24,998 nt of DNA from a virus. The DNA lies in IMG/VR virus record IMGVR_UViG_3300030118_000514, positions 1 through 24,998 of that record; one strand, given 5' to 3'. A program made the translations under genes and the position numbers. A model generated the notes under the pieces. That model did not search any database. It was given only the letters and a program-made list of their open reading frames with translations, and was not told where the DNA came from. Below, one piece after another: positions 5,099 through 14,998 of this stretch. Positions within the stretch are counted from its first letter, which is position 1. Each line of letters begins with the position of its first letter.

Positions 5099-5144
5099 TC
5101 AACTCCTCGTCTAAATCATCTAATAGTGGTATATCAAAAATCAT
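5031..5144 (-). CDS. Possible 37-residue overlapping ORF
   Basis: ATG 5144 lies within the last codons of the lysozyme-like gene, and the frame ends at TAA 5031 inside the next gene. The peptide begins MIFDIPLLDDLDEELSDKEI and continues with a basic amphipathic stretch (RARQSREARREANT). It covers the only gap between the two genes, but its Shine-Dalgarno is weak (GGAAC close to the ATG), and it overlaps the downstream coding region by 68 bases. It may be real or may only bring ribosomes to GTG 5098. Confidence 0.3.
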   Translation of the reverse strand: MIFDIPLLDDLDEELSDKEIQLYRARQSREARREANT

Positions 5145-5556
5145 AGTTCCAACAATGCTCTGAGCTATACCAATGTTTACCCTTGCCGTCATTATAAAAG
5201 AGCCACGAAGCTATTTTAATATTTAGTAATGGGTCTTTTCTGTCTCCTTCAAAGTTCAGTTTATCCTGCAACCAAGACCAAGTTACATCATTAAACATAA
5301 ACAAACCTTCGTCCATTGTTCCATTGGTATTGTGATTATGTACTGAAGGTCTGCCTGATGATTCACAATAAACAATAAGACTTGCTTGTAAAACATCTTC
5401 AGGCTTAAAGTGTGTCTGCAATACAGGAATCCATTGTTCTACAACTTGGACTTTTTTATATTGCTCCCTGCAATCTAAGTAAGTCTCCATATCACTTGCC
5501 ATTGGTGGCAAAGTTAAGAGACACGCAATCACACCTTCAATAATTAATGAAGGCAT
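5134..5556 (-). CDS. Lysozyme/transglycosylase-like protein with signal peptide
   Basis: A 140-residue protein. The start ATG 5556 has AAAGGAG four bases upstream. Residues 1-20 (MPSLIIEGVIACLLTLPPMA) resemble a secretion signal. Residues 57-95 (ASLIVYCESSGRPSV, EGLFMFNDVTWSWL) match the lysozyme-like fold, with catalytic Glu E65 in CESSG and the GLF-x-F/I-N...W motif typical of transglycosylase/lysozyme domains; the Cys residues may form disulfides. It is likely a peptidoglycan-cleaving endolysin or virion-associated lysin, exported before action. It follows a promoter region and a 36-codon Cys-rich ORF, separate from the DUF5675 lysis gene further right. Confidence 0.75.
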   Translation of the reverse strand: MPSLIIEGVIACLLTLPPMASDMETYLDCREQYKKVQVVEQWIPVLQTHFKPEDVLQASLIVYCESSGRPSVHNHNTNGTMDEGLFMFNDVTWSWLQDKLNFEGDRKDPLLNIKIASWLFYNDGKGKHWYSSEHCWNYDF

Positions 5557-6115: not shown

Positions 6116-6297
6116 TATTTTCTAAATCTAATTGTAATTAACCATATTGCCAAAGTAATTACAGTTGCATAAAAAGTTATCGTCCTAGACGCACCACTCA
6201 AAGTCAATATTGCAATAATCATTCCGACTAATGTCCAAGCAAGATTAAGAGTTTCTTTTATTGCTTCAATCAACCAAGACCACAATTCTTTTATCAA
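6115..6297 (-). CDS. Small two-span membrane protein, holin candidate
   Basis: A 60-residue product with an amphipathic start (MIKELWSWLIEAIKETL), two hydrophobic segments (LAWTLVGMIIAILTL and ITFYATVITLAIWLI) and a basic end (TIRFRK). Size, topology and place in a lysis cluster fit a class II-like holin. ATG 6297 overlaps the stop of the 648-residue gene. There are two other small membrane proteins nearby, so which is the pore former is undecided. Confidence 0.55.
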   Translation of the reverse strand: MIKELWSWLIEAIKETLNLAWTLVGMIIAILTLSGASRTITFYATVITLAIWLITIRFRK

Positions 6298-8240
6298 TTA
6301 AATCTCCTTACTGCTAATGATAAAATTCTTACCATAATTGTCGGCACTATGACTTCCTGTGCCTTTTCCTTTTGCTGAGAACTCATATCATCAGTAATAT
6401 TTGTTAAATTTACTGCGTCTAAATCAACATCAATAATAACACTAAAGTCTCCTTGAGCTAAAGACTCAAAGGTAATTTCTGTTGTAACATCTGCTAAGTT
6501 GTAATCTTCTATCTTAGCGTTCTCAACTGCTCTCTCTACATATTCTTCTACTGCTTTTGCTACTGTCTCATCAGTCTTTACTGCTTCTGCAATAACTTGT
6601 ACATCTTCTGTTTCTGTAAATCCAAGAACTTCTGCCACAACTTCCTGTTGTTCTTCTGTAAGCTCGTCAGCTTTTTCTATTGATTGTTCTACAACTTGAG
6701 CTACAACTTCAAGTACATCTTCGCTAACTTCGTCAAGATTTTCCAATCCTGCGTCATTAACTTCTTCAATGATTTCAACAACTTGTTCTGTTTCAAGTTC
6801 TTCAACTTCAATTTCTTGTATAGCTTCAATCTTTTCTTCTACTTCTTTAACTTCTACTTGTATTTCTTCATCTGTTAATTCAACTTCTTCGACAATGACT
6901 TCATCTTCTTCTTGAATTTCTGTCTCTGACTCGGTGTCATCTGTAAATATTTCTTCGTCCAACTCATCTTCTAATTCTTCTTCTTCTATAACAATTATTA
7001 TTTCTTCAGGTATATCTTCAATAATAATTTCTTCAATGTAAATATCTTCTATTTCTTCAATGTATTCCTGTACTTCAAGTATTGTTTCAACAAACTCTTT
7101 TGCTTCTTCTTCAGTATCAAACTCAAATATTTCGATTTCTTCTTCAAGTTCCAAGAGTTTTTCATCAAACTCCATTTGTCGTTCAAGTTCTTTTTCAGTA
7201 AGCTCATCTTCCACAATGTCAAGTACATCAACATCATCAAAAAACTCGTCTCCGATTTCTTCCACATCTTGTTCTTCAATGTCATATAATTCTAAATCTC
7301 CCCTTGCAACCTGCTCGTCAGTTAATTCTACACCGTATAATTCATAATTCTTTTGTCGTTCATTATCTCTCTCTACCGTTCCGTCTTGTATCTCGTGTTC
7401 TTCATACTCAGCTTCTTCTCCATTATCTAAAATAACAACAAAAATCTCAGGCTCAGGTGGTGGTGGCTCATAAACAACAGGTGGTGGTGGCAAAGTAGTA
7501 GTAGTAGTTGTTGTTGTGGTAGTAGTTGTTGTTGGCTCTATATATTTAAAACTTATGTTATCAACTAAAGTCCAATCATTAAGTGTCAAAGTAAACTTAT
7601 CAATAAAAGTATCTAAGGTTTCTCTAATGTTATAAACAACAACTTCATACATAGATTCAGCAGAAGTAAAAGTTTGTGCTTCTATTATATCTGTTTGTGT
7701 AGTCTCGTCTGTATGCGTATAAGTTACTGTTGATTCATAATTCAAAGCACCTATTGTAAAACCAACTTCATAAATATCTATGTCTAGTTCTTCTTCATCA
7801 ATAGTTGTAGTTTCAGGTAAATCAAATTCATAATCAGCACCTTCTCCACCGTGTTGCCTAAACTCTAAATTTATACAATAGTCAGTACAACCATATTGTC
7901 CTGTCCAAGTGTTATTAATGTCAATGTTATTCTGAACTTCGTTTCCTTGTATATCTAGTTCATCTTCAGGTATAACCATATCTGTACTTTGTTCCCAAGT
8001 CTCAGGCACAGTTGTAGTTGTTGTACTTGTAATTGTTGTGCTAGTTGTAGATGTATTCTCAGGAATTGTTGTTGTAGTTGTAGTTGTTCCGTCAAAAGTC
8101 TCTACTTCTTCTACTTCTCCTTCAGGGATTGTGGTTGTAGTTGTAGTAGTAGTTGTAGTATCTTCTTCAGCTATGACAGGCAAAGGTACTGCTATAAAGC
8201 ACACAGAAGCTATACACAAAAACTTCTTTAGGTTAAGCAC
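6294..8240 (-). CDS. Secreted, extremely acidic protein with Thr-only linkers
   Basis: A 648-residue product starting at GTG 8240, four bases after the preceding stop. Residues 1-24 (MLNLKKFLCIASVCFIAVPL...) are a signal peptide. Then come three tracts of nearly pure Thr (around residues 28-37, 52-58 and 65-78), a compact domain (about 95-235, with C118 and C122 in YGCTDYC), another Thr tract plus Pro-rich stretch (about 239-265), and about 330 residues dominated by Glu/Asp/Ile/Val with helical heptad-like patterns (EEVAQVVEQSIEKADELTEE). The end VPTIMVRILSLAVRRFN is hydrophobic then basic. Thr linkers of this kind are typical of extracellular actinobacterial proteins. No family is recognised. 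It lies between holin candidates. It may act at the cell surface or may be host-derived. Confidence 0.7.
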   Translation of the reverse strand: MLNLKKFLCIASVCFIAVPLPVIAEEDTTTTTTTTTTIPEGEVEEVETFDGTTTTTTTIPENTSTTSTTITSTTTTTVPETWEQSTDMVIPEDELDIQGNEVQNNIDINNTWTGQYGCTDYCINLEFRQHGGEGADYEFDLPETTTIDEEELDIDIYEVGFTIGALNYESTVTYTHTDETTQTDIIEAQTFTSAESMYEVVVYNIRETLDTFIDKFTLTLNDWTLVDNISFKYIEPTTTTTTTTTTTTTLPPPPVVYEPPPPEPEIFVVILDNGEEAEYEEHEIQDGTVERDNERQKNYELYGVELTDEQVARGDLELYDIEEQDVEEIGDEFFDDVDVLDIVEDELTEKELERQMEFDEKLLELEEEIEIFEFDTEEEAKEFVETILEVQEYIEEIEDIYIEEIIIEDIPEEIIIVIEEEELEDELDEEIFTDDTESETEIQEEDEVIVEEVELTDEEIQVEVKEVEEKIEAIQEIEVEELETEQVVEIIEEVNDAGLENLDEVSEDVLEVVAQVVEQSIEKADELTEEQQEVVAEVLGFTETEDVQVIAEAVKTDETVAKAVEEYVERAVENAKIEDYNLADVTTEITFESLAQGDFSVIIDVDLDAVNLTNITDDMSSQQKEKAQEVIVPTIMVRILSLAVRRFN

Positions 8241-8599: not shown

Positions 8600-9205
8600 T
8601 TAGGTAATATTTCTGCCTTCTAGTTTAGCTTCTAAGATTTTCAGATTCCCATTTATCTCTGAAATTTTTTCATATATGTCATTTGCTCCAATCATATTTT
8701 GTGGAGACTTGTTAGATAATTTAGTTACAGATTCTTCTACTATTTCATTAAGATTAATTTTTGATATTTTTATTGTTACTTCTTTACCTGCTTGTAAAGG
8801 TTTTGCTATTTTATCGTAACACTTTTTGTAAGCGTCTCTTGACCTTCCAATTAAACCGTCTTTACCTAAATCTAAGTCTTGTTGAGTAGAGCCTGTCAAT
8901 ATACAACCTGCCGTATGCTCATCTGTGTTTCCTGAGTGTATCAAGATATATTTAAAATTAGGTACATCTTGTAACTCCAACATTCCATAATGTGTGTTTC
9001 CATATCTTGCTTTATATTTAGTGTGAAAACCACCTTCTTTACGAAACTTTATATTATAAGTTCCTTCAGGAATTGCAGTTTCACTATATACTTTTACATC
9101 TCTTACTTCATCTTCTAAGGTGTAACACTCAAACACACCGTCAATAAAAAGCAGTCCATTTGTTGCGTCCTCGCCAAACTGAACTCTTACAACATCAAGT
9201 TTCAT
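8600..9205 (-). CDS. DUF5675 protein, L,D-transpeptidase-like fold
   Basis: A 201-residue protein. Residues 5-155 match the DUF5675 pattern: RVQFGEDATNGLLFIDG, CYTLEDEVRD, AIPEGTYNIKFR and ILIHSGNTDEHTAGCILTG, with H90 and C101 placed like the catalytic His and Cys of L,D-transpeptidase-related folds. The last 45 residues are a predicted coiled coil (YEKISEINGNLKILEAKLEG). DUF5675 proteins are common in phage lysis or tail regions and are suspected of acting on cell wall; activity is not established. The start ATG 9205 overlaps the stop of the upstream gene (TAATG). It may be the main wall-degrading enzyme or a regulator of it. Confidence 0.75.
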   Translation of the reverse strand: MKLDVVRVQFGEDATNGLLFIDGVFECYTLEDEVRDVKVYSETAIPEGTYNIKFRKEGGFHTKYKARYGNTHYGMLELQDVPNFKYILIHSGNTDEHTAGCILTGSTQQDLDLGKDGLIGRSRDAYKKCYDKIAKPLQAGKEVTIKISKINLNEIVEESVTKLSNKSPQNMIGANDIYEKISEINGNLKILEAKLEGRNIT

Positions 9206-9522
9206 TATTCAGGTTTTGGATTATCGTCTTTGACTTTTTTAATAGCTTTGTACCATTCGCCTGTTTTGTCTAGTTTACCTGCGTCTATGTCCCAATAGAG
9301 TTGGTCTAGTTGGTCTCCAATAGCACCATAGGATTCTTGCCTAGCTTGTATATATCCAAACTGTTGCTCTTCCCATTTTGAGTTACCTAAGTCAATCTTA
9401 GCTTGTGCGTAGTCTGATTCTTCAAACTCCATACGCTCATTATTAATTTGCTTGTACAAAGGCTTAGCAGATTCTATCTCTGCGTCTGCTTCTGTTTGTA
9501 ACTGTTCTTTTGTCTTTGCCAT
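9205..9522 (-). CDS. IGDQLD-motif phage protein (tail-fibre adjacent)
   Basis: A 105-residue, helical, charged protein. The second half carries YGAIGDQLDQLYWDIDAGK and ends AIKKVKDDNPKPE, a pattern seen in many small phage proteins encoded next to tail fibre genes, often annotated as XkdW-like or tail assembly chaperone-like. No signal or membrane span. It has its own Shine-Dalgarno (AGGAG) upstream of ATG 9522 and follows the six appendage paralogues. It is probably an assembly helper for tail appendages; that role is inferred from position. Confidence 0.55.
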   Translation of the reverse strand: MAKTKEQLQTEADAEIESAKPLYKQINNERMEFEESDYAQAKIDLGNSKWEEQQFGYIQARQESYGAIGDQLDQLYWDIDAGKLDKTGEWYKAIKKVKDDNPKPE

Positions 9523-9547: not shown

Positions 9548-10066
9548 TTATTTAACAAGTCCATACAACTTAAATGTTCCACTATCAATGTTTCCACTAT
9601 CCATAAAAAAATTTAATCCGTCCACAGAGCTTGTACTTGTGAAAACTCCTCCACCCTGTTGACCTAATAATTCTGGTGTCGAATTAAATTCAATATTTTC
9701 CTTTGTGTGAAATGTAAACTCTGAAGAATTGTTTGCATTAAATATGTACATCAAAACTTGCATACCCTCGCCTGTACCTGTACCAATATTTGTTCCTAAA
9801 TCCCAACTTGTTTCATTAGTTGCAGATTGATTTCCAAAAGAAGCACCAGCTCGTAACAATTTACTAGCTCTATCATAATTTGCAGTAGTATTTGCAGTTC
9901 CACTCTCTGTTACTCTGCACTTTAAATCTTCAACATCAGTATCACATTGTAAATTATTTATAAGTATTTTAAACACATCAAAAGTGCTATCAATACCTGT
10001 CAAAGACACAGAGCTTACTGCACCCGAAACTATTTCCTCATCTATTTTTATTAAACTACCTGCCAT
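9548..10066 (-). CDS. Tail appendage/receptor-binding paralogue S2b
   Basis: A 172-residue, Ser/Thr/Asn-rich, beta-rich protein. It begins MAGSLIKIDEEIVSGAVSSV and shows VSLTGIDSTFDVFKILINN, SGTANTTANYD, NNSSEFTF, QQGGGVF and the end SGNIDSGTFKLYGLVK. The same blocks occur in the gene at 11220-11723 (SLTGVD, SGSADTSSNYD, NNSSEYSF, NGGGLL, TGNITGGTFTLYKVV), its closest partner here. It is the last of six tandem paralogues. Likely a tail-tip or fibre head protein that meets the host surface; this is inferred from repetition, composition and position. Confidence 0.6.
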   Translation of the reverse strand: MAGSLIKIDEEIVSGAVSSVSLTGIDSTFDVFKILINNLQCDTDVEDLKCRVTESGTANTTANYDRASKLLRAGASFGNQSATNETSWDLGTNIGTGTGEGMQVLMYIFNANNSSEFTFHTKENIEFNSTPELLGQQGGGVFTSTSSVDGLNFFMDSGNIDSGTFKLYGLVK

Positions 10067-10578
10067 TATTTAACTCCATATACATTTACTGTTAAATTAT
10101 CGATTGTTCCGCTAACTCTACCAAACTGCATACCTGATAATTGTTCAGCACTCTCGTGCATACCAATAAATTTACTACCTCTACCACCACCAGAATGTTG
10201 AGATGATGTTTGTCCTGAAACAAAAGTAAAGCTAGAACTATCAAAGGGATTATATATATACATTGATACTCCTCCAAAATCATCAGCACCAGAATTAGAT
10301 AAACCAAAATTTGGAATAGATGTTTGATTTTTACCAAACAGTTCAGAAAAACTTGCATTTGCATACATATCTAAAGTCGCGAAATCATATTCACTTGCTG
10401 ATATAACACTTCCTCCACTATCTAAAAATCTTAAAAGATTATAAGTTTGTGCAGAAAAATCGCCCTTAGATATTGAAACAAAATACACATCATATTGAGA
10501 GCTAAAACAATCTGGAACATCAAGCGTACTAACACTACTCCCACTAGCAGATTTTATAAACTGCAAATTTGTAGCCAT
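10066..10578 (-). CDS. Tail appendage/receptor-binding paralogue S2a
   Basis: A 170-residue protein: MATNLQFIKSASGSSVSTLD..., SQYDVYFVSI, RFLDSGGSVISASEYD, YIYNPFDSSSFTFVSGQ, KFIGMHESAEQLSGMQF, end TVNVYGVK. It pairs with 11723-12262, which has RFINSSGSVVSSSVYE, YVFNPTNSSTFTLALGQ and GVGNLEQADFITGFQL at the same places. Overlaps both neighbours as TAATG, so the set is co-translated. Function as for the other paralogues. Confidence 0.6.
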   Translation of the reverse strand: MATNLQFIKSASGSSVSTLDVPDCFSSQYDVYFVSISKGDFSAQTYNLLRFLDSGGSVISASEYDFATLDMYANASFSELFGKNQTSIPNFGLSNSGADDFGGVSMYIYNPFDSSSFTFVSGQTSSQHSGGGRGSKFIGMHESAEQLSGMQFGRVSGTIDNLTVNVYGVK

Positions 10579-11219
10579 TAGAAACTCCGAATACCATATA
10601 GGCTAAAATTTCCACTCTCTAAAGTGCCAGAATTAAAAGCCATAACTTGTATTTTATTCACAGAACTTGCTTGTGGTAAAACTTGACTACCCCAAAAACT
10701 TCTATAAATATCAGAGTTACTATAAACAGAACTGTGTTGTGTGGTAAATGAATACTTTGTACTGTCCAATAAATTATAAAAATATAAATATCCATTTATA
10801 TTACTTCTTGGAACAGAGCTAATTTTAATATTATCAGCAAATCTAAAAGCTGAATTAGAACTTGACCTATTTTCTGAAAAACTACCGTCAGCACCACAAA
10901 TTTGTCTTGCAGTATCATAAACAGAGCCACTCTCTAAAGTGCCACTCTCATAAAGTCTAAATGCTATACCTGTATCATTATCTGATACAGTTCCGTCATT
11001 AACTGTAATTAAATGCACATTGTAATCTTTTAAATCTTGGAACTCAACTGTTGATACAGAACTAGATACAGTAACAGTCTCAATCAATTCTAACTGTCCA
11101 AAGTTTGTCCATTTGTTTTCTTGGTCTAGCTCAATAATTTCTTGTGGTGTAAAAATACCTTTATTATCTCTAAAAGCCTGTTCAACTTCTTTTCCTATGT
11201 AGCCATATTCTTTACTCAT
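10578..11219 (-). CDS. Tail appendage paralogue L2 with N-terminal anchor
   Basis: A 213-residue protein. An extra N-terminal segment of about 40 residues (YGYIGKEVEQAFRDNKGIFT and PQEIIELDQ) precedes the common beta domain (VSSSVSTVEFQDLKDYNVHL, SGTLESGSVYD, YLYFYNLLDSTKYSFTT, LPQASSVNKIQVM, SGNFSLYGIRSF). The gene at 12259-12891 has the same long form (GYIGDTSTSV, NKGILTTQE, LESGNVYH, LYNLGNSSKYSFLTT, LLPQSSKVDGF). The extra segment may attach the appendage to the tail while the shared domain faces outward. It opens the second copy of the long-short-short cassette. Confidence 0.6.
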   Translation of the reverse strand: MSKEYGYIGKEVEQAFRDNKGIFTPQEIIELDQENKWTNFGQLELIETVTVSSSVSTVEFQDLKDYNVHLITVNDGTVSDNDTGIAFRLYESGTLESGSVYDTARQICGADGSFSENRSSSNSAFRFADNIKISSVPRSNINGYLYFYNLLDSTKYSFTTQHSSVYSNSDIYRSFWGSQVLPQASSVNKIQVMAFNSGTLESGNFSLYGIRSF

Positions 11220-11723
11220 CTATACCACCTTATACAATGTAAATGTACCACCTGTAATATTACCTGTATTCATTAACAAATTTACTCCGTCATTACTTTG
11301 TGTTTCTGTAAGTAAACCACCACCGTTAAAACCCCTTATATTATTTGTACTTGCATAAAATGTACTTGTAACATTTAAAAAAGAATATTCACTTGAATTG
11401 TTTAAATTATATAAATAACATAACAAACCTGCATTACCACTTATTGAATTTTGTACAGTTGCAGTTAGTGTAATCTCTGAAGCATTTTGTCTTGAAAAAG
11501 TAGAAAATGACCCATTACTAATTAAATAATGGTGTGTTTCATCATAATTTGAAGAAGTATCGGCACTACCACTTACAGTAAATTGCAATCGTAACTGTGC
11601 ATCGCTTTGTGTTGATAAATTACTTACTGTCAAAAGGTAAACACTATCATCATCAACACCTGTTAGAGATACATTAGCAGTTGAGCTTGTAACTGTGCTT
11701 GTTGCAACTTGCAATAATCCCAT
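11220..11723 (-). CDS. Tail appendage/receptor-binding paralogue S1b
   Basis: A 167-residue protein beginning MGLLQVATSTVTSSTANVSL, with SGSADTSSNYD, CYLYNLNNSSEYSFL, NGGGLLTETQSNDGVNLLM and end GGTFTLYKVV. Partner of 9548-10066. No signal peptide. It contains the only GCATC that I found in the window (11599-11603). Its role is inferred to be a tail-tip adhesin unit. Confidence 0.6.
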   Translation of the reverse strand: MGLLQVATSTVTSSTANVSLTGVDDDSVYLLTVSNLSTQSDAQLRLQFTVSGSADTSSNYDETHHYLISNGSFSTFSRQNASEITLTATVQNSISGNAGLLCYLYNLNNSSEYSFLNVTSTFYASTNNIRGFNGGGLLTETQSNDGVNLLMNTGNITGGTFTLYKVV

Positions 11724-12262
11724 TATGTATCAACCCTTATACCATAACAACGAACTTTTATTTCGCCATAAGTTGCAGTATATCCGTCTTGTAATAATTG
11801 AAAACCTGTAATAAAATCTGCTTGTTCTAAATTACCTACACCAGTCATACCACCACTTTTACCTGTTGAAAAATCATTTTGTGATTGCCCTAAAGCTAAT
11901 GTAAATGTACTTGAATTTGTAGGATTAAAAACATAAAATATACCTGCACCACCCTGCCTTGAGCCATTGTTATAATCAAAAAAACCTAAAAACCTTTCAA
12001 ATAAAACAGTATCGCCTGTACTTCTTAATTGGTTATAATTACTATCTGTTCTTCTATAAAGTAAAGCATTTTCGTAAACACTTGACGATACAACACTACC
12101 ACTAGAATTTATAAATCTTACTGTTAAATTACAATTAGCGTCATAGTCATCAGCTTCTACTTCTATTTTATAAATATCAAAATCAGAAGTAAAAACATCT
12201 GTTATATCTACACTTGCAACACTAGTAGCAATGGTTTCGTTAAGTAATCTTAAATTACTCAT
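11723..12262 (-). CDS. Tail appendage/receptor-binding paralogue S1a
   Basis: A 179-residue protein: MSNLRLLNETIATSVASVDI, DFDIYKIEVE, RFINSSGSVVSSSVYE, RQGGAGIFYVFNPTNSSTFT, GVGNLEQADFITGF, end IKVRCYGIRVDT. Partner of 10066-10578. Its start overlaps the stop of 12259-12891 (ATGA) and its end overlaps the start of 11220-11723. The same beta-rich fold as the other five is expected. Confidence 0.6.
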   Translation of the reverse strand: MSNLRLLNETIATSVASVDITDVFTSDFDIYKIEVEADDYDANCNLTVRFINSSGSVVSSSVYENALLYRRTDSNYNQLRSTGDTVLFERFLGFFDYNNGSRQGGAGIFYVFNPTNSSTFTLALGQSQNDFSTGKSGGMTGVGNLEQADFITGFQLLQDGYTATYGEIKVRCYGIRVDT

Positions 12263-12891
12263 ATATCTTTTACCCCATACAGTTTTGCAGTACCACTAAC
12301 AGTTTTTCCAGTAATAGTTTCTAACAATCTAAATCCGTCAACTTTACTTGATTGTGGTAAAAGTCCACCCCCGAAACTCATTTTTGCAACTCCCCCGTCC
12401 TCCAAAATTCCTCTTGTAGTTAAAAAACTATACTTTGAACTATTCCCAAGATTATATAAATATGCAAAGGCATTTCCATTATCATTTGTACCACTACCAT
12501 AATTACCAATATTTAAAAATATATTATTTCTATTATCATCTTTACTTGCGTCAACAGTACCAGTTGCCTCACCAAATACCATTGCATAATGGTAAACATT
12601 ACCACTTTCTAATACTCCATTTTCATAAAATTGTATGCCCATTGAACTATCACCACCTGACATAATCGTATTTGTAACAGTTAAAAAATGAACATCATAT
12701 TCATCTTCTTTTATGGAAAGAAAATCGATTGTACTAACACCAGAAAAGGTTGTTTCTGTAATAAACTCTAAACTACCACCAAGAAAACCCTGTCGTTCTA
12801 AATCAAAGCTCTCTTGTGTAGTTAATATGCCTTTATTCTTAACCTGTTGTTTGACACTTGTAGATGTGTCTCCAATATAACCGAATGACAT
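12259..12891 (-). CDS. Tail appendage paralogue L1 with N-terminal anchor
   Basis: A 210-residue protein. N-terminal segment MSFGYIGDTSTSVKQQVKNK then GILTTQESFDLERQGFLGG, followed by the common domain (FSGVSTIDFLSIKEDEYDVH, ENGVLESGNVYH, YLYNLGNSSKYSFLTT, GGGLLPQSSKVDGFRLL, end SGTAKLYGVKDI). It opens the first long-short-short cassette and pairs with 10578-11219. Likely the tail-attached subunit of an appendage built from the three genes; this is inference. Confidence 0.6.
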   Translation of the reverse strand: MSFGYIGDTSTSVKQQVKNKGILTTQESFDLERQGFLGGSLEFITETTFSGVSTIDFLSIKEDEYDVHFLTVTNTIMSGGDSSMGIQFYENGVLESGNVYHYAMVFGEATGTVDASKDDNRNNIFLNIGNYGSGTNDNGNAFAYLYNLGNSSKYSFLTTRGILEDGGVAKMSFGGGLLPQSSKVDGFRLLETITGKTVSGTAKLYGVKDI

Positions 12892-12900
12892 AAGAAAAAA

Positions 12901-13230
12901 TTATGTCTGCTTTAGATAATTAATCGTAAAGTCAATACTTGAAGCAGTAGAACATAAACCTTGTATCTTATCTCCTGTGGTTAAAACTACCTTAGTTTCC
13001 CAAACAAGAGTTGTACCTGCTGGAACAGTAACATCATTTAATAAATGTGGAGTTACTGAGCCACCTGATTTAACTATTTCAATATCAATCGTAACATCTT
13101 GACTGCTTGAATTAACATTTGCAAAAGACATTCCGATTATTGTTTCTGTTGTAGATGAGCCTACTGCGTCAAGTAAATCTGCATTACTTGTTCCAAGAGT
13201 TCCTACTACACCTTCTAATACATCTGCCAT
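12901..13230 (-). CDS. Small virion appendage protein
   Basis: A 109-residue, beta-rich protein. VDIEIVKSGGSV-type strands are visible as VTIDIEIVKSGGSVTPHLLN, followed by VTVPAGTTLVWETKVVL, GDKIQGLCSTASSIDFTINY. Proteins of this pattern (VPAG...LEAGDKI...ASSVDV) occur next to fibre genes in many marine and other phages, where they are structural. AGGAAGG lies upstream of ATG 13230. No catalytic motif. Probably a fibre or tail-decorating protein. Confidence 0.55.
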   Translation of the reverse strand: MADVLEGVVGTLGTSNADLLDAVGSSTTETIIGMSFANVNSSSQDVTIDIEIVKSGGSVTPHLLNDVTVPAGTTLVWETKVVLTTGDKIQGLCSTASSIDFTINYLKQT

Positions 13231-13241
13231 ATCTATCCTTC

Positions 13242-13718
13242 CTAGCTAAGAGCTAATACTAATCCTAATGTAACGCCACCTGCTAAATTTGCTATATCTC
13301 CTGCCGTTGTTTTCTTTAAATTGTTACTGTCATCTGCGTCTGCAAAAAGTATAACATCAGCACTTGCAACTGTTCCTGAAGTAGCTTGTGTTGGTGCAAC
13401 GACTAAAGTTGATGAGAATGCACCTGATGTAGCCGTAGCTCCACCTGATAATCCTGAAGTAGAGCCTGTTGTAATAGTTACACCTGTTATGTCTCCTTCT
13501 CCAATAAAATTAACCCAACTTGAGCCGTCATAAAATTGTAGAGTGTTTGTATCTTTTAAGAAACAAAACATACCTTCTGCGTCATTAGTACCTAAAGCAG
13601 TATCTCTAGCTGAAGAATCTGCATAAACTTGTACAACTTGGTCTTGAATAAAAGTCTGAAACTCAGTAGCACTAATTAAATCTCCTGTGCTATAACTTTT
13701 CCAACCTGCTCCTGCCAT
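13242..13718 (-). CDS. Tail fibre-type structural protein
   Basis: A 158-residue protein. The N-terminus GWKSYSTGDLISATEFQTFI and VVQVYADSSARDTALG, EGMFCFLKDTNTLQFYDGSS form the typical opening of phage fibre proteins (W..Y..GDL..A.EF..., EGM..FLKDT..LQ.YDGSSW). The rest is low-complexity Thr/Ser/Ala/Gly (ITTGSTSGLSGGATATSGAF). It ends in a hydrophobic tail (ANLAGGVTLGLVLALS). It follows the baseplate-like gene and probably connects appendages to the tail tip. Confidence 0.6.
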   Translation of the reverse strand: MAGAGWKSYSTGDLISATEFQTFIQDQVVQVYADSSARDTALGTNDAEGMFCFLKDTNTLQFYDGSSWVNFIGEGDITGVTITTGSTSGLSGGATATSGAFSSTLVVAPTQATSGTVASADVILFADADDSNNLKKTTAGDIANLAGGVTLGLVLALS

Positions 13719-13732
13719 ATTAAATTACCTTC

Positions 13733-14998
13733 CTAACTATAAACAAATCTAGTTCCTTCTCCTAGTTTAGCTTGTCCTAATATCCAAGCTGAACTTCCTG
13801 CTGGACTTAATGTAGCCGTCCAACTCCAAGTTTGACTTGAAGCATTTACAGTATGACTTATGGATTCTATCCATAGCTCATCTGTAAAGCTACTGCCGTC
13901 CACATTGACTATCTTAACAGATATTCTGTCTCCGAACTCTCGTCCCAAAACTTGTTCCCAAAGAGATGTATTTTCTCTCGGATTGCAAGTCAATTCGTCA
14001 ATCCTTACAATAGGTAGAGATGTTTCTGCTATCTTCTGTTCAATTATAGACAAAACATCTGAGTCCGAAACATTTATAGTAGTTTTGTTATTTTCTTTTG
14101 CCCTATACTTTAGAACAGAATTAGTGTCAGCTTTGTACTGTACTGAGCCACCACTTCTTTGCCACTCATAAACATTAATTATCTCGTTGTCATCAAAAGA
14201 AGTAGATACATTTGTATAAGGTAAATTGCTACCGTCATTACTAAATATACCTTGAACATTTATAGCTTTGGTATTAGATAATTTATAATCTCTGTTTCTA
14301 AATGTTGCTTTACCGTCTTTTGCCATAAAGAATTGTCCATTTTCAGCAGTTTCACACTCTCTCAAACCTGTAAGAACATTGGTAGTAATAGCTTGTGATA
14401 TTACATTTTTAGTTCCTGTAAGTACATCTCTACGATTACTAGGAAATCCAATAGCATTTAATATTCTAGTAATTCTTGCAGAACTAAGTTCTTGTTCATC
14501 TGTGTAACTTAGTCTTGTTGATAATCCTATTTCAGAAAAACCTGCAAGTCCTAAACGCCAACCAACACCGTCCAACTGTGCTGATTGAAAAATTTTAAAA
14601 GCGTCTACACAAGTAAAAGTAACAATCGAGTCTGCACCTTCAGATATAAACTTGACAGGCACACTTTGTAAAAAACCTTCAAATATTCTGTAAGTTACAG
14701 AGTCATAAGTTGCAGACATTCTAACTCTCTTAAGTGGTTGTATCTTTGTAATTGCATTTGTTGAATCGTAATAAGGGCTTGAAGTATTATTAGGATTAAA
14801 CCTATTGTCAGCATTTGATACTGAAAAACTCATTGTACCTGCAACAAACTCTCCTAATTCATTTGCTCTACCACGCCTTGTTGTAAATGCTCTTAGGAAA
14901 CTTGTTATATCTGTAAAAGATTGTGTTTCATCAAAAGGCTCTGAATCAAAGCCAACTTCAAGTGTTAGTGATACATTGGAATCAAAATTTGCACTCAT
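13733..14998 (-). CDS. Baseplate hub/minor tail protein
   Basis: A 421-residue protein directly after the tape measure gene (4-base-scale overlap at 14998). The N-terminus reads SLTLEVGFDSEPFDE, DITSFLRAFTTRRGRANELG, FSVSNADNRFNPNN, an opening typical of actinophage minor tail proteins that follow the tape measure (ITDYV...RGR...AGT.S..L.N.DR.F.P). The middle (GFPSNRRDVLTG, FFMAKDGKATFRNRD) and the end (GDRISVKIVNVDG, LWIESISHTVN, WTATLSPA) match hub-type proteins. Acts at the distal tail end during assembly and DNA entry. No enzymatic domain seen. Confidence 0.7.
   Translation of the reverse strand: MSANFDSNVSLTLEVGFDSEPFDETQSFTDITSFLRAFTTRRGRANELGEFVAGTMSFSVSNADNRFNPNNTSSPYYDSTNAITKIQPLKRVRMSATYDSVTYRIFEGFLQSVPVKFISEGADSIVTFTCVDAFKIFQSAQLDGVGWRLGLAGFSEIGLSTRLSYTDEQELSSARITRILNAIGFPSNRRDVLTGTKNVISQAITTNVLTGLRECETAENGQFFMAKDGKATFRNRDYKLSNTKAINVQGIFSNDGSNLPYTNVSTSFDDNEIINVYEWQRSGGSVQYKADTNSVLKYRAKENNKTTINVSDSDVLSIIEQKIAETSLPIVRIDELTCNPRENTSLWEQVLGREFGDRISVKIVNVDGSSFTDELWIESISHTVNASSQTWSWTATLSPAGSSAWILGQAKLGEGTRFVYS

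Follow-up and report, generated by a model that had tools for sequence, protein, structure and literature searches.

Heterotrimeric tail parts encoded by three consecutive genes are already known. In the mycobacteriophage Mysterious, three consecutive genes of ~200 amino acids (aa) each, gp35, gp36 and gp37, produce a baseplate heterotrimer that has been described in a cryo-electron microscopy preprint: its subunits form β-sandwiches held together by an N-terminal arm, and its role is described as building the baseplate cage (PMC13252515). In Dishui Lake virophage 2 (DSLV2), three consecutive ~200-aa paralogs were co-expressed, and the proteins formed a heterotrimer that binds host cells (PMC12724248). 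Here we analyze six tandem genes, arranged as two triads, in a 24,998-nucleotide stretch of viral DNA (IMG/VR record IMGVR_UViG_3300030118_000514, positions 1 to 24,998; hereafter the window). We consider it probable that each triad encodes a heterotrimeric receptor-binding tail appendage with a hypervariable β-sandwich head, docked through its first subunit, A.

The first-pass annotation of the window had described the genes as a long-short-short cassette present twice and had paired them one by one. Both descriptions held. The six open reading frames lie head to tail on the minus strand, and we named them in order of transcription: A1, B1, C1, A2, B2 and C2. Smith-Waterman z-scores, computed against 300 shuffles, were highest for same-position pairs: 35.6 for A1–A2 (a value that includes an N-terminal anchor shared by the two; trees of the cores only yield the same position-class grouping), 28.6 for B1–B2 and 32.6 for C1–C2. 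The twelve cross pairs scored 7.4–19.9, far above chance, so all six genes are homologous and constitute one family. A protein search within the window's own record also linked them as relatives. The motifs listed earlier were mostly present: A1 and A2 open with GYIG, the two B proteins share YxxNPxxSSxFT, and the two C proteins have SGxAxTxxNYD, NNSSExxF and GGG. RFxxSGSV had been slightly misquoted (the B proteins read RFINSSGSV and RFLDSGGSV, that is, RFxxSxGSV), and GGG occurs in A1 as well. None of the six proteins matched Pfam above chance, and an Rfam scan of the window returned zero RNA families. The family phrog_14820, to which no function is assigned, matched C2 over 151 residues (E 6.6e-10) and none of the other five subunits at E ≤ 10.

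How does this locus compare with the described systems? Like Mysterious, it belongs to a siphophage and has three consecutive, overlapping genes of ~200 aa downstream of tail genes. Unlike the Mysterious type, it has two sets rather than one, and gp37 is not recognizably paralogous to gp35 and gp36. For sequence comparison we used Acadian (JN699007), which we take to belong to the same mycobacteriophage cluster; its consecutive gp35–37 (209, 202 and 206 aa, with 4-base overlaps) were equated with those of Mysterious by gene number, size and cluster, not by sequence comparison. We rejected these proteins as homologs: hidden Markov model (HMM) E values were 1.8 for gp35 and 0.46 for gp37, gp36 gave no match, and hhalign returned a probability of 0.1%. 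The comparison is therefore one of kind, not of descent. Like DSLV2, the locus has position-specific clades of three paralogs. DSLV2, likened here by its description, differs in being a virophage with one set and a T4 gp37-like needle with a collar domain; the 50 PDB Foldseek matches listed included no such needle or collar fold, and the C2 model is compact and all-β.

The same family occurs in the pelagiphages HTVC010P, HTVC019P and HTVC034P (HMM domain E 5e-28 to 2e-33), again as three overlapping or closely spaced genes beside tail genes, annotated as "hypothetical protein". Unlike in the window triads, all three pelagiphage genes carry an N-terminal piece of ~20 aa, and the sets are usually single. 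Two pelagiphage-like contigs contain two triads each (L138:970-5724, with a longer fibre between two sets of three, and L113:2572-6250, with six genes), suggesting that triads have doubled outside the window's group too. Pelagiphage C1q genes have been proposed as receptor-binding proteins (PMC3909814). We set these aside: they are apparently other genes, the C1q-looking gene of HTVC019P being a separate 155-aa gene by inspection, and they lend only indirect support. The family was absent from the ~15-kb stretches read of Pontimonas phage phiPsal1 and Microcystis phage Mae-JY09, the nearest named phages by tail protein. As far as the literature could be searched, with few preprints and subscription papers covered, the family, its strict multiples of three, its independently inherited two-set form and its presence in pelagiphages are new.

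We collected relatives using the 421-aa tail protein gene upstream of the triads as query, which gave 80 syntenic viral contigs, and added others via C1, one pelagiphage gene, one single-triad gene and three A2 alignments. An alignment of the six proteins offered too little conservation in any stretch to seed a profile search of viral contigs. A six-gene profile detected family members in most of the collected contigs and in the three pelagiphages. The single-domain genes came in multiples of three. The set comprised 129 distinct complete runs (mutually related, and so not a count of independent events): 53 contained three such genes, 46 contained six, six contained three plus one or two longer genes, and one contained three, a longer gene and three more; the remaining 23 places held one longer gene alone (230–367 aa, with its own N-terminal part). 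Runs of one, two, four or five single-domain genes numbered zero. Class profiles gave the order ABCABC in 45 of the 46 six-gene runs, the remaining run being pelagiphage-type. We drew the line separating single-domain from longer genes at 228 aa once the data had been inspected, and domain starts overlap slightly: the domain begins at residue 60 in one single-domain gene of contig L225 and from residue 56 in the longer class. With the exception of L099, lone longer genes open with a tail-fibre-like xYIG/FIG N-terminus. Two long single-gene proteins carry the family domain as a C-terminal head, L099:7500-8516 (podovirus ct7QV12, 338 aa) and L100:6623-7696 (HTVC034P gp39, 357 aa), and are likely a homotrimeric form of the same head.

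The triads also behave as units of inheritance. We compared pairwise identities of the six cores across 45 distinct six-gene genomes by Mantel correlation. Within triads, r was 0.41, 0.52 and 0.57 (triad 1) and 0.39, 0.37 and 0.32 (triad 2; all p ≤ 0.002), as opposed to −0.01 to 0.19 between triads. The adjacent genes C1 and A2 gave 0.09, whereas A1 and C1, which lie two genes apart, gave 0.52; the break in linkage thus reflects the triad boundary rather than distance. Gene junctions show the same division: 162 of 180 junctions within triads overlap (by 1 or 4 bases in the majority of genomes), compared with only 7 of 45 at C1–A2. Together, the linkage break and the overlaps show the triad to be the unit.

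Nearly all phage fibres are homotrimers, and A, B and C could likewise form three separate homotrimers (six in the window phage), each an adhesin of its own, with the genes simply a paralog array. The long proteins of ct7QV12 and HTVC034P would fit this arrangement, as would the single-subunit swaps described below. An array of this kind would, however, allow one, two, four or five genes, none of which the runs display; B and C begin at the first strand, with no anchor; and divergence is linked within triads only. We therefore regard separate homotrimers as unlikely. From the multiples of three, the single anchored subunit, the linkage within triads and the precedents of Mysterious and DSLV2, we infer a heterotrimer.

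To what extent are the two triads copies of one another? In a 78-row tree of the cores, the B proteins (support 100/99) and the C proteins (98/87) each form a clade that contains both triads as well as single-triad phages. A tree with neighbouring genes closest (triad-1 genes grouped), which the first-pass annotation had opposed to duplication of a whole triad, was rejected by the approximately unbiased (AU) test (p 0.0008). The pelagiphage triad genes form their own clade (100/100), within which positions are strongly clustered, and the AU test rejects placing pelagiphage gene 2 in one group with B (p 0.003) and pelagiphage gene 3 in one group with C (p 1.5e-5). Pelagiphage triads thus lack the window's A/B/C subunit classes, which suggests that three genes were reached a second time by an independent route; either the three-gene state seems to have arisen separately in them, or their genes have been homogenised since. 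In a 148-row tree, 25 of 26 B1 and 21 of 23 C1 proteins fell in clades separate from B2 and C2, so the two triads split long before these phages diverged. Trees, gene order and linkage agree with the earlier proposal that a whole triad was duplicated and later specialised, with two amendments: the event is ancient and common to a large marine phage group, and import of an already diverged second triad is an alternative. Either an ancient tandem duplication or an ancient import may have taken place, as both fit. The doubled state is old and shared, and it has been lost or exchanged repeatedly.

In window-type triads, an N-terminal extension is present in A only and comes in several types. In L010 and L013, the closest relatives, identity to the window reaches 97–100% in the A1 anchor and 35–64% in the cores; it is 90–100% in the flanking genes and 81% in the DUF5675 gene. 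The A1 anchor motif also heads unrelated glycine-rich fibres found in this slot in other phages (L027, E 3e-10; L054, E 3e-7; L070, L071 and L073, weakly, 0.03). L027 has both in series: a glycine-rich fibre with this anchor family, then a triad whose A is of the A2 type. In single-triad phages A mostly starts with MPLG, and so does the fibre of L059. Mapped on the tail-gene tree, the slot alternates among two triads, one triad and other fibres with about 12 flips; two triads versus one or none needs 12 changes, a count in which the slot state of incomplete contigs was read from anchor type. Shared anchors, swapped contents and variable cores mark the slot as a cassette, probably for host-recognition parts.

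AlphaFold2 predicted C2 with high confidence as a compact all-β domain. The A1 model has the same core, preceded by 40 poorly predicted residues with two short helices. Many predicted viral proteins match this fold, some of them named tail fibre, Stf or collagen repeat. A galectin-type head was tried and rejected: galectin-8 was the top PDB match (E 1.2e-4), but its template modelling (TM) score of 0.35–0.38 is too weak. No C1q/TNF chains were among the 50 PDB Foldseek matches listed, and a sequence profile search of PDB gave chance matches to staphylococcal nuclease only. Column entropy peaks in C2 segments 41–50, 91–100 and 121–130 and reaches its minimum near the first strand. Some columns are class-specific, most clearly that of C2 residue 116, which is Lys in A (85%), Ser in B (79%) and Glu in C (84%). 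Such a Lys/Glu contrast between matching positions would be in keeping with an asymmetric trimer, although this is suggestive only.

The earlier label "tail appendage" was interpretive; by position, the locus directly follows the tape-measure gene (PF10145) and the 421-aa tail gene. The proteins might instead be structural parts of the baseplate or head decoration that bind no receptor: the Mysterious heterotrimer mainly builds a baseplate cage (PMC13252515), and receptor binding is, for the window phage, something we infer. A hypervariable domain that lies in an otherwise conserved tail locus and is exchanged with other fibres is, however, a feature of receptor-binding proteins. Within this locus, whose neighbouring genes are 96–100% identical, the cores vary far more than any other part, and relatives fill the slot with glycine-rich fibres bearing the same anchor, as expected for host-recognition parts. 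A structural role is accordingly quite unlikely. Very unlikely, finally, is that linkage and gene order were kept by recombination alone, with the conserved anchor DNA at the A1 and A2 starts serving as crossover sites and triads swapping as blocks without subunit contact: this would account for anchors that are 74–100% identical beside far more divergent cores in L010 and L013, for a linkage break exactly at the A2 anchor and for the repeated flips of the slot, but it leaves the constant multiple of three unexplained, and the separate pelagiphage triads follow the same rule with other N-terminal pieces. Such recombination can operate alongside a heterotrimer.

Several observations weigh against heterotrimeric adhesins. 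In the 78-row tree, class A and the pelagiphage sequences do not separate: the pelagiphages branch from within A, which leaves A without a clean clade. The runs that obey the rule of three are phylogenetically non-independent. Crossing over within the conserved anchor DNA on the flanks of each triad could produce the linkage within triads, without physical contact between subunits. Single genes have been exchanged on their own (B1 between L093 and L089, 85%; C2 between L092 and L010, 87%; C1 between L091 and L092, 89%), so the subunits are not strictly locked together. Finally, the PDB Foldseek search gave no confident fold (TM < 0.4), and the trimer geometry is thus borrowed from no homolog.

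In a heterotrimeric adhesin, the overlapping start and stop codons would couple translation of A, B and C, and the three proteins, sharing one β-sandwich fold, would pack one each around a pseudo-threefold axis. The conserved N-terminal and C-terminal strands would hold the trimer together, the N-terminal anchor of A would dock it on the tail, and the variable loops of the three heads would present the host-binding surface. The window phage would fill two docking positions with two diverged triads and so display two different adhesins on its virion. These perhaps serve two receptors, as had been proposed, or variants of one; the two anchor types and the independent inheritance of the triads fit two receptors. 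We give about even odds to a broader reading: that pelagiphages, along with marine siphophages of a large group, use heterotrimeric three-paralog adhesins, a design reached at least twice independently, and that two adhesins whose subunits and triads are exchanged separately allow combinatorial host recognition. A widespread family with strict threes, an anchor on just one subunit and two sets per genome that are inherited independently offers a testable case of such recognition in abundant marine viruses. It also suggests a likely function for the "hypothetical" genes of HTVC010P and its relatives, cultured phages that allow direct tests.

Table 1 Coordinates of the two triads, their anchors and the genes bordering the slot
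Feature	Position	Strand	Description
A1, triad 1 subunit 1	12259..12891	-	210 aa; N-terminal anchor and family β-sandwich core
A1 anchor, residues 1–37, MSFGYIGDTSTSVKQQVKNKGILTTQESFDLERQGFL	12781..12891	-	Near-invariant among close relatives with differing cores; diverged form on unrelated same-slot fibres; low-confidence model (predicted local distance difference test, pLDDT, 44–67), short helices
B1, triad 1 subunit 2	11723..12262	-	179 aa; no anchor; ATGA overlap (4 bases) with A1
C1, triad 1 subunit 3	11220..11723	-	167 aa; no anchor; TAATG overlap (1 base) with B1
A2, triad 2 subunit 1	10578..11219	-	213 aa; adjoins C1 with zero overlap
A2 anchor, residues 1–40, MSKEYGYIGKEVEQAFRDNKGIFTPQEIIELDQENKWTNF	11100..11219	-	Anchor type distinct from that of A1
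B2, triad 2 subunit 2	10066..10578	-	170 aa; 1-base overlap with A2
C2, triad 2 subunit 3	9548..10066	-	172 aa; 1-base overlap with B2; AlphaFold2 pLDDT 94.7, all-β
Conserved gene directly upstream of triads	12901..13230	-	109 aa; missing in the single-triad MPLG phages examined
Conserved gene, upstream	13242..13718	-	158 aa; fixed left border of swap slot
Tail protein	13733..14998	-	421 aa; query for syntenic relatives
Gene directly downstream of triads	9205..9522	-	105 aa; phrog_1787
DUF5675 gene	8600..9205	-	Fixed right border of swap slot

The other fibres found in the slot (L027:5068-5985, L054:3436-4296, L071:2593-3600 and L059:11330-12223) are glycine-rich single genes, several of which share the anchor motif of A. 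Each is followed by a gene of 94–137 aa, which may encode an assembly or tip protein. L031 has neither a triad nor a separate slot fibre; its counterpart of the 158-aa border gene (L031:10286-11185) encodes 299 aa and may carry the recognition part itself.

Elsewhere in the window, the major capsid protein (PF05065; 21128-22408, minus strand) is nearest, among named isolates, to those of Mycobacterium and Gordonia phages (27%), and the tail protein weakly matches that of Pontimonas phage phiPsal1. Together these similarities hint at a marine actinobacterial host; a scan of genome contigs for the host found no relatives. A candidate enzyme for lysis or entry is encoded at 5134-5556 (minus strand): this 140-aa protein contains an SLT transglycosylase-like domain (PF01464, E 8.8e-6). 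The 648-aa product of the gene at 6294-8240 (minus strand) likely has a signal peptide and contains long runs of poly-Thr and a half that is rich in Glu; counterparts of 572–722 aa occupy the same place in L015, L027, L031, L052 and L054.

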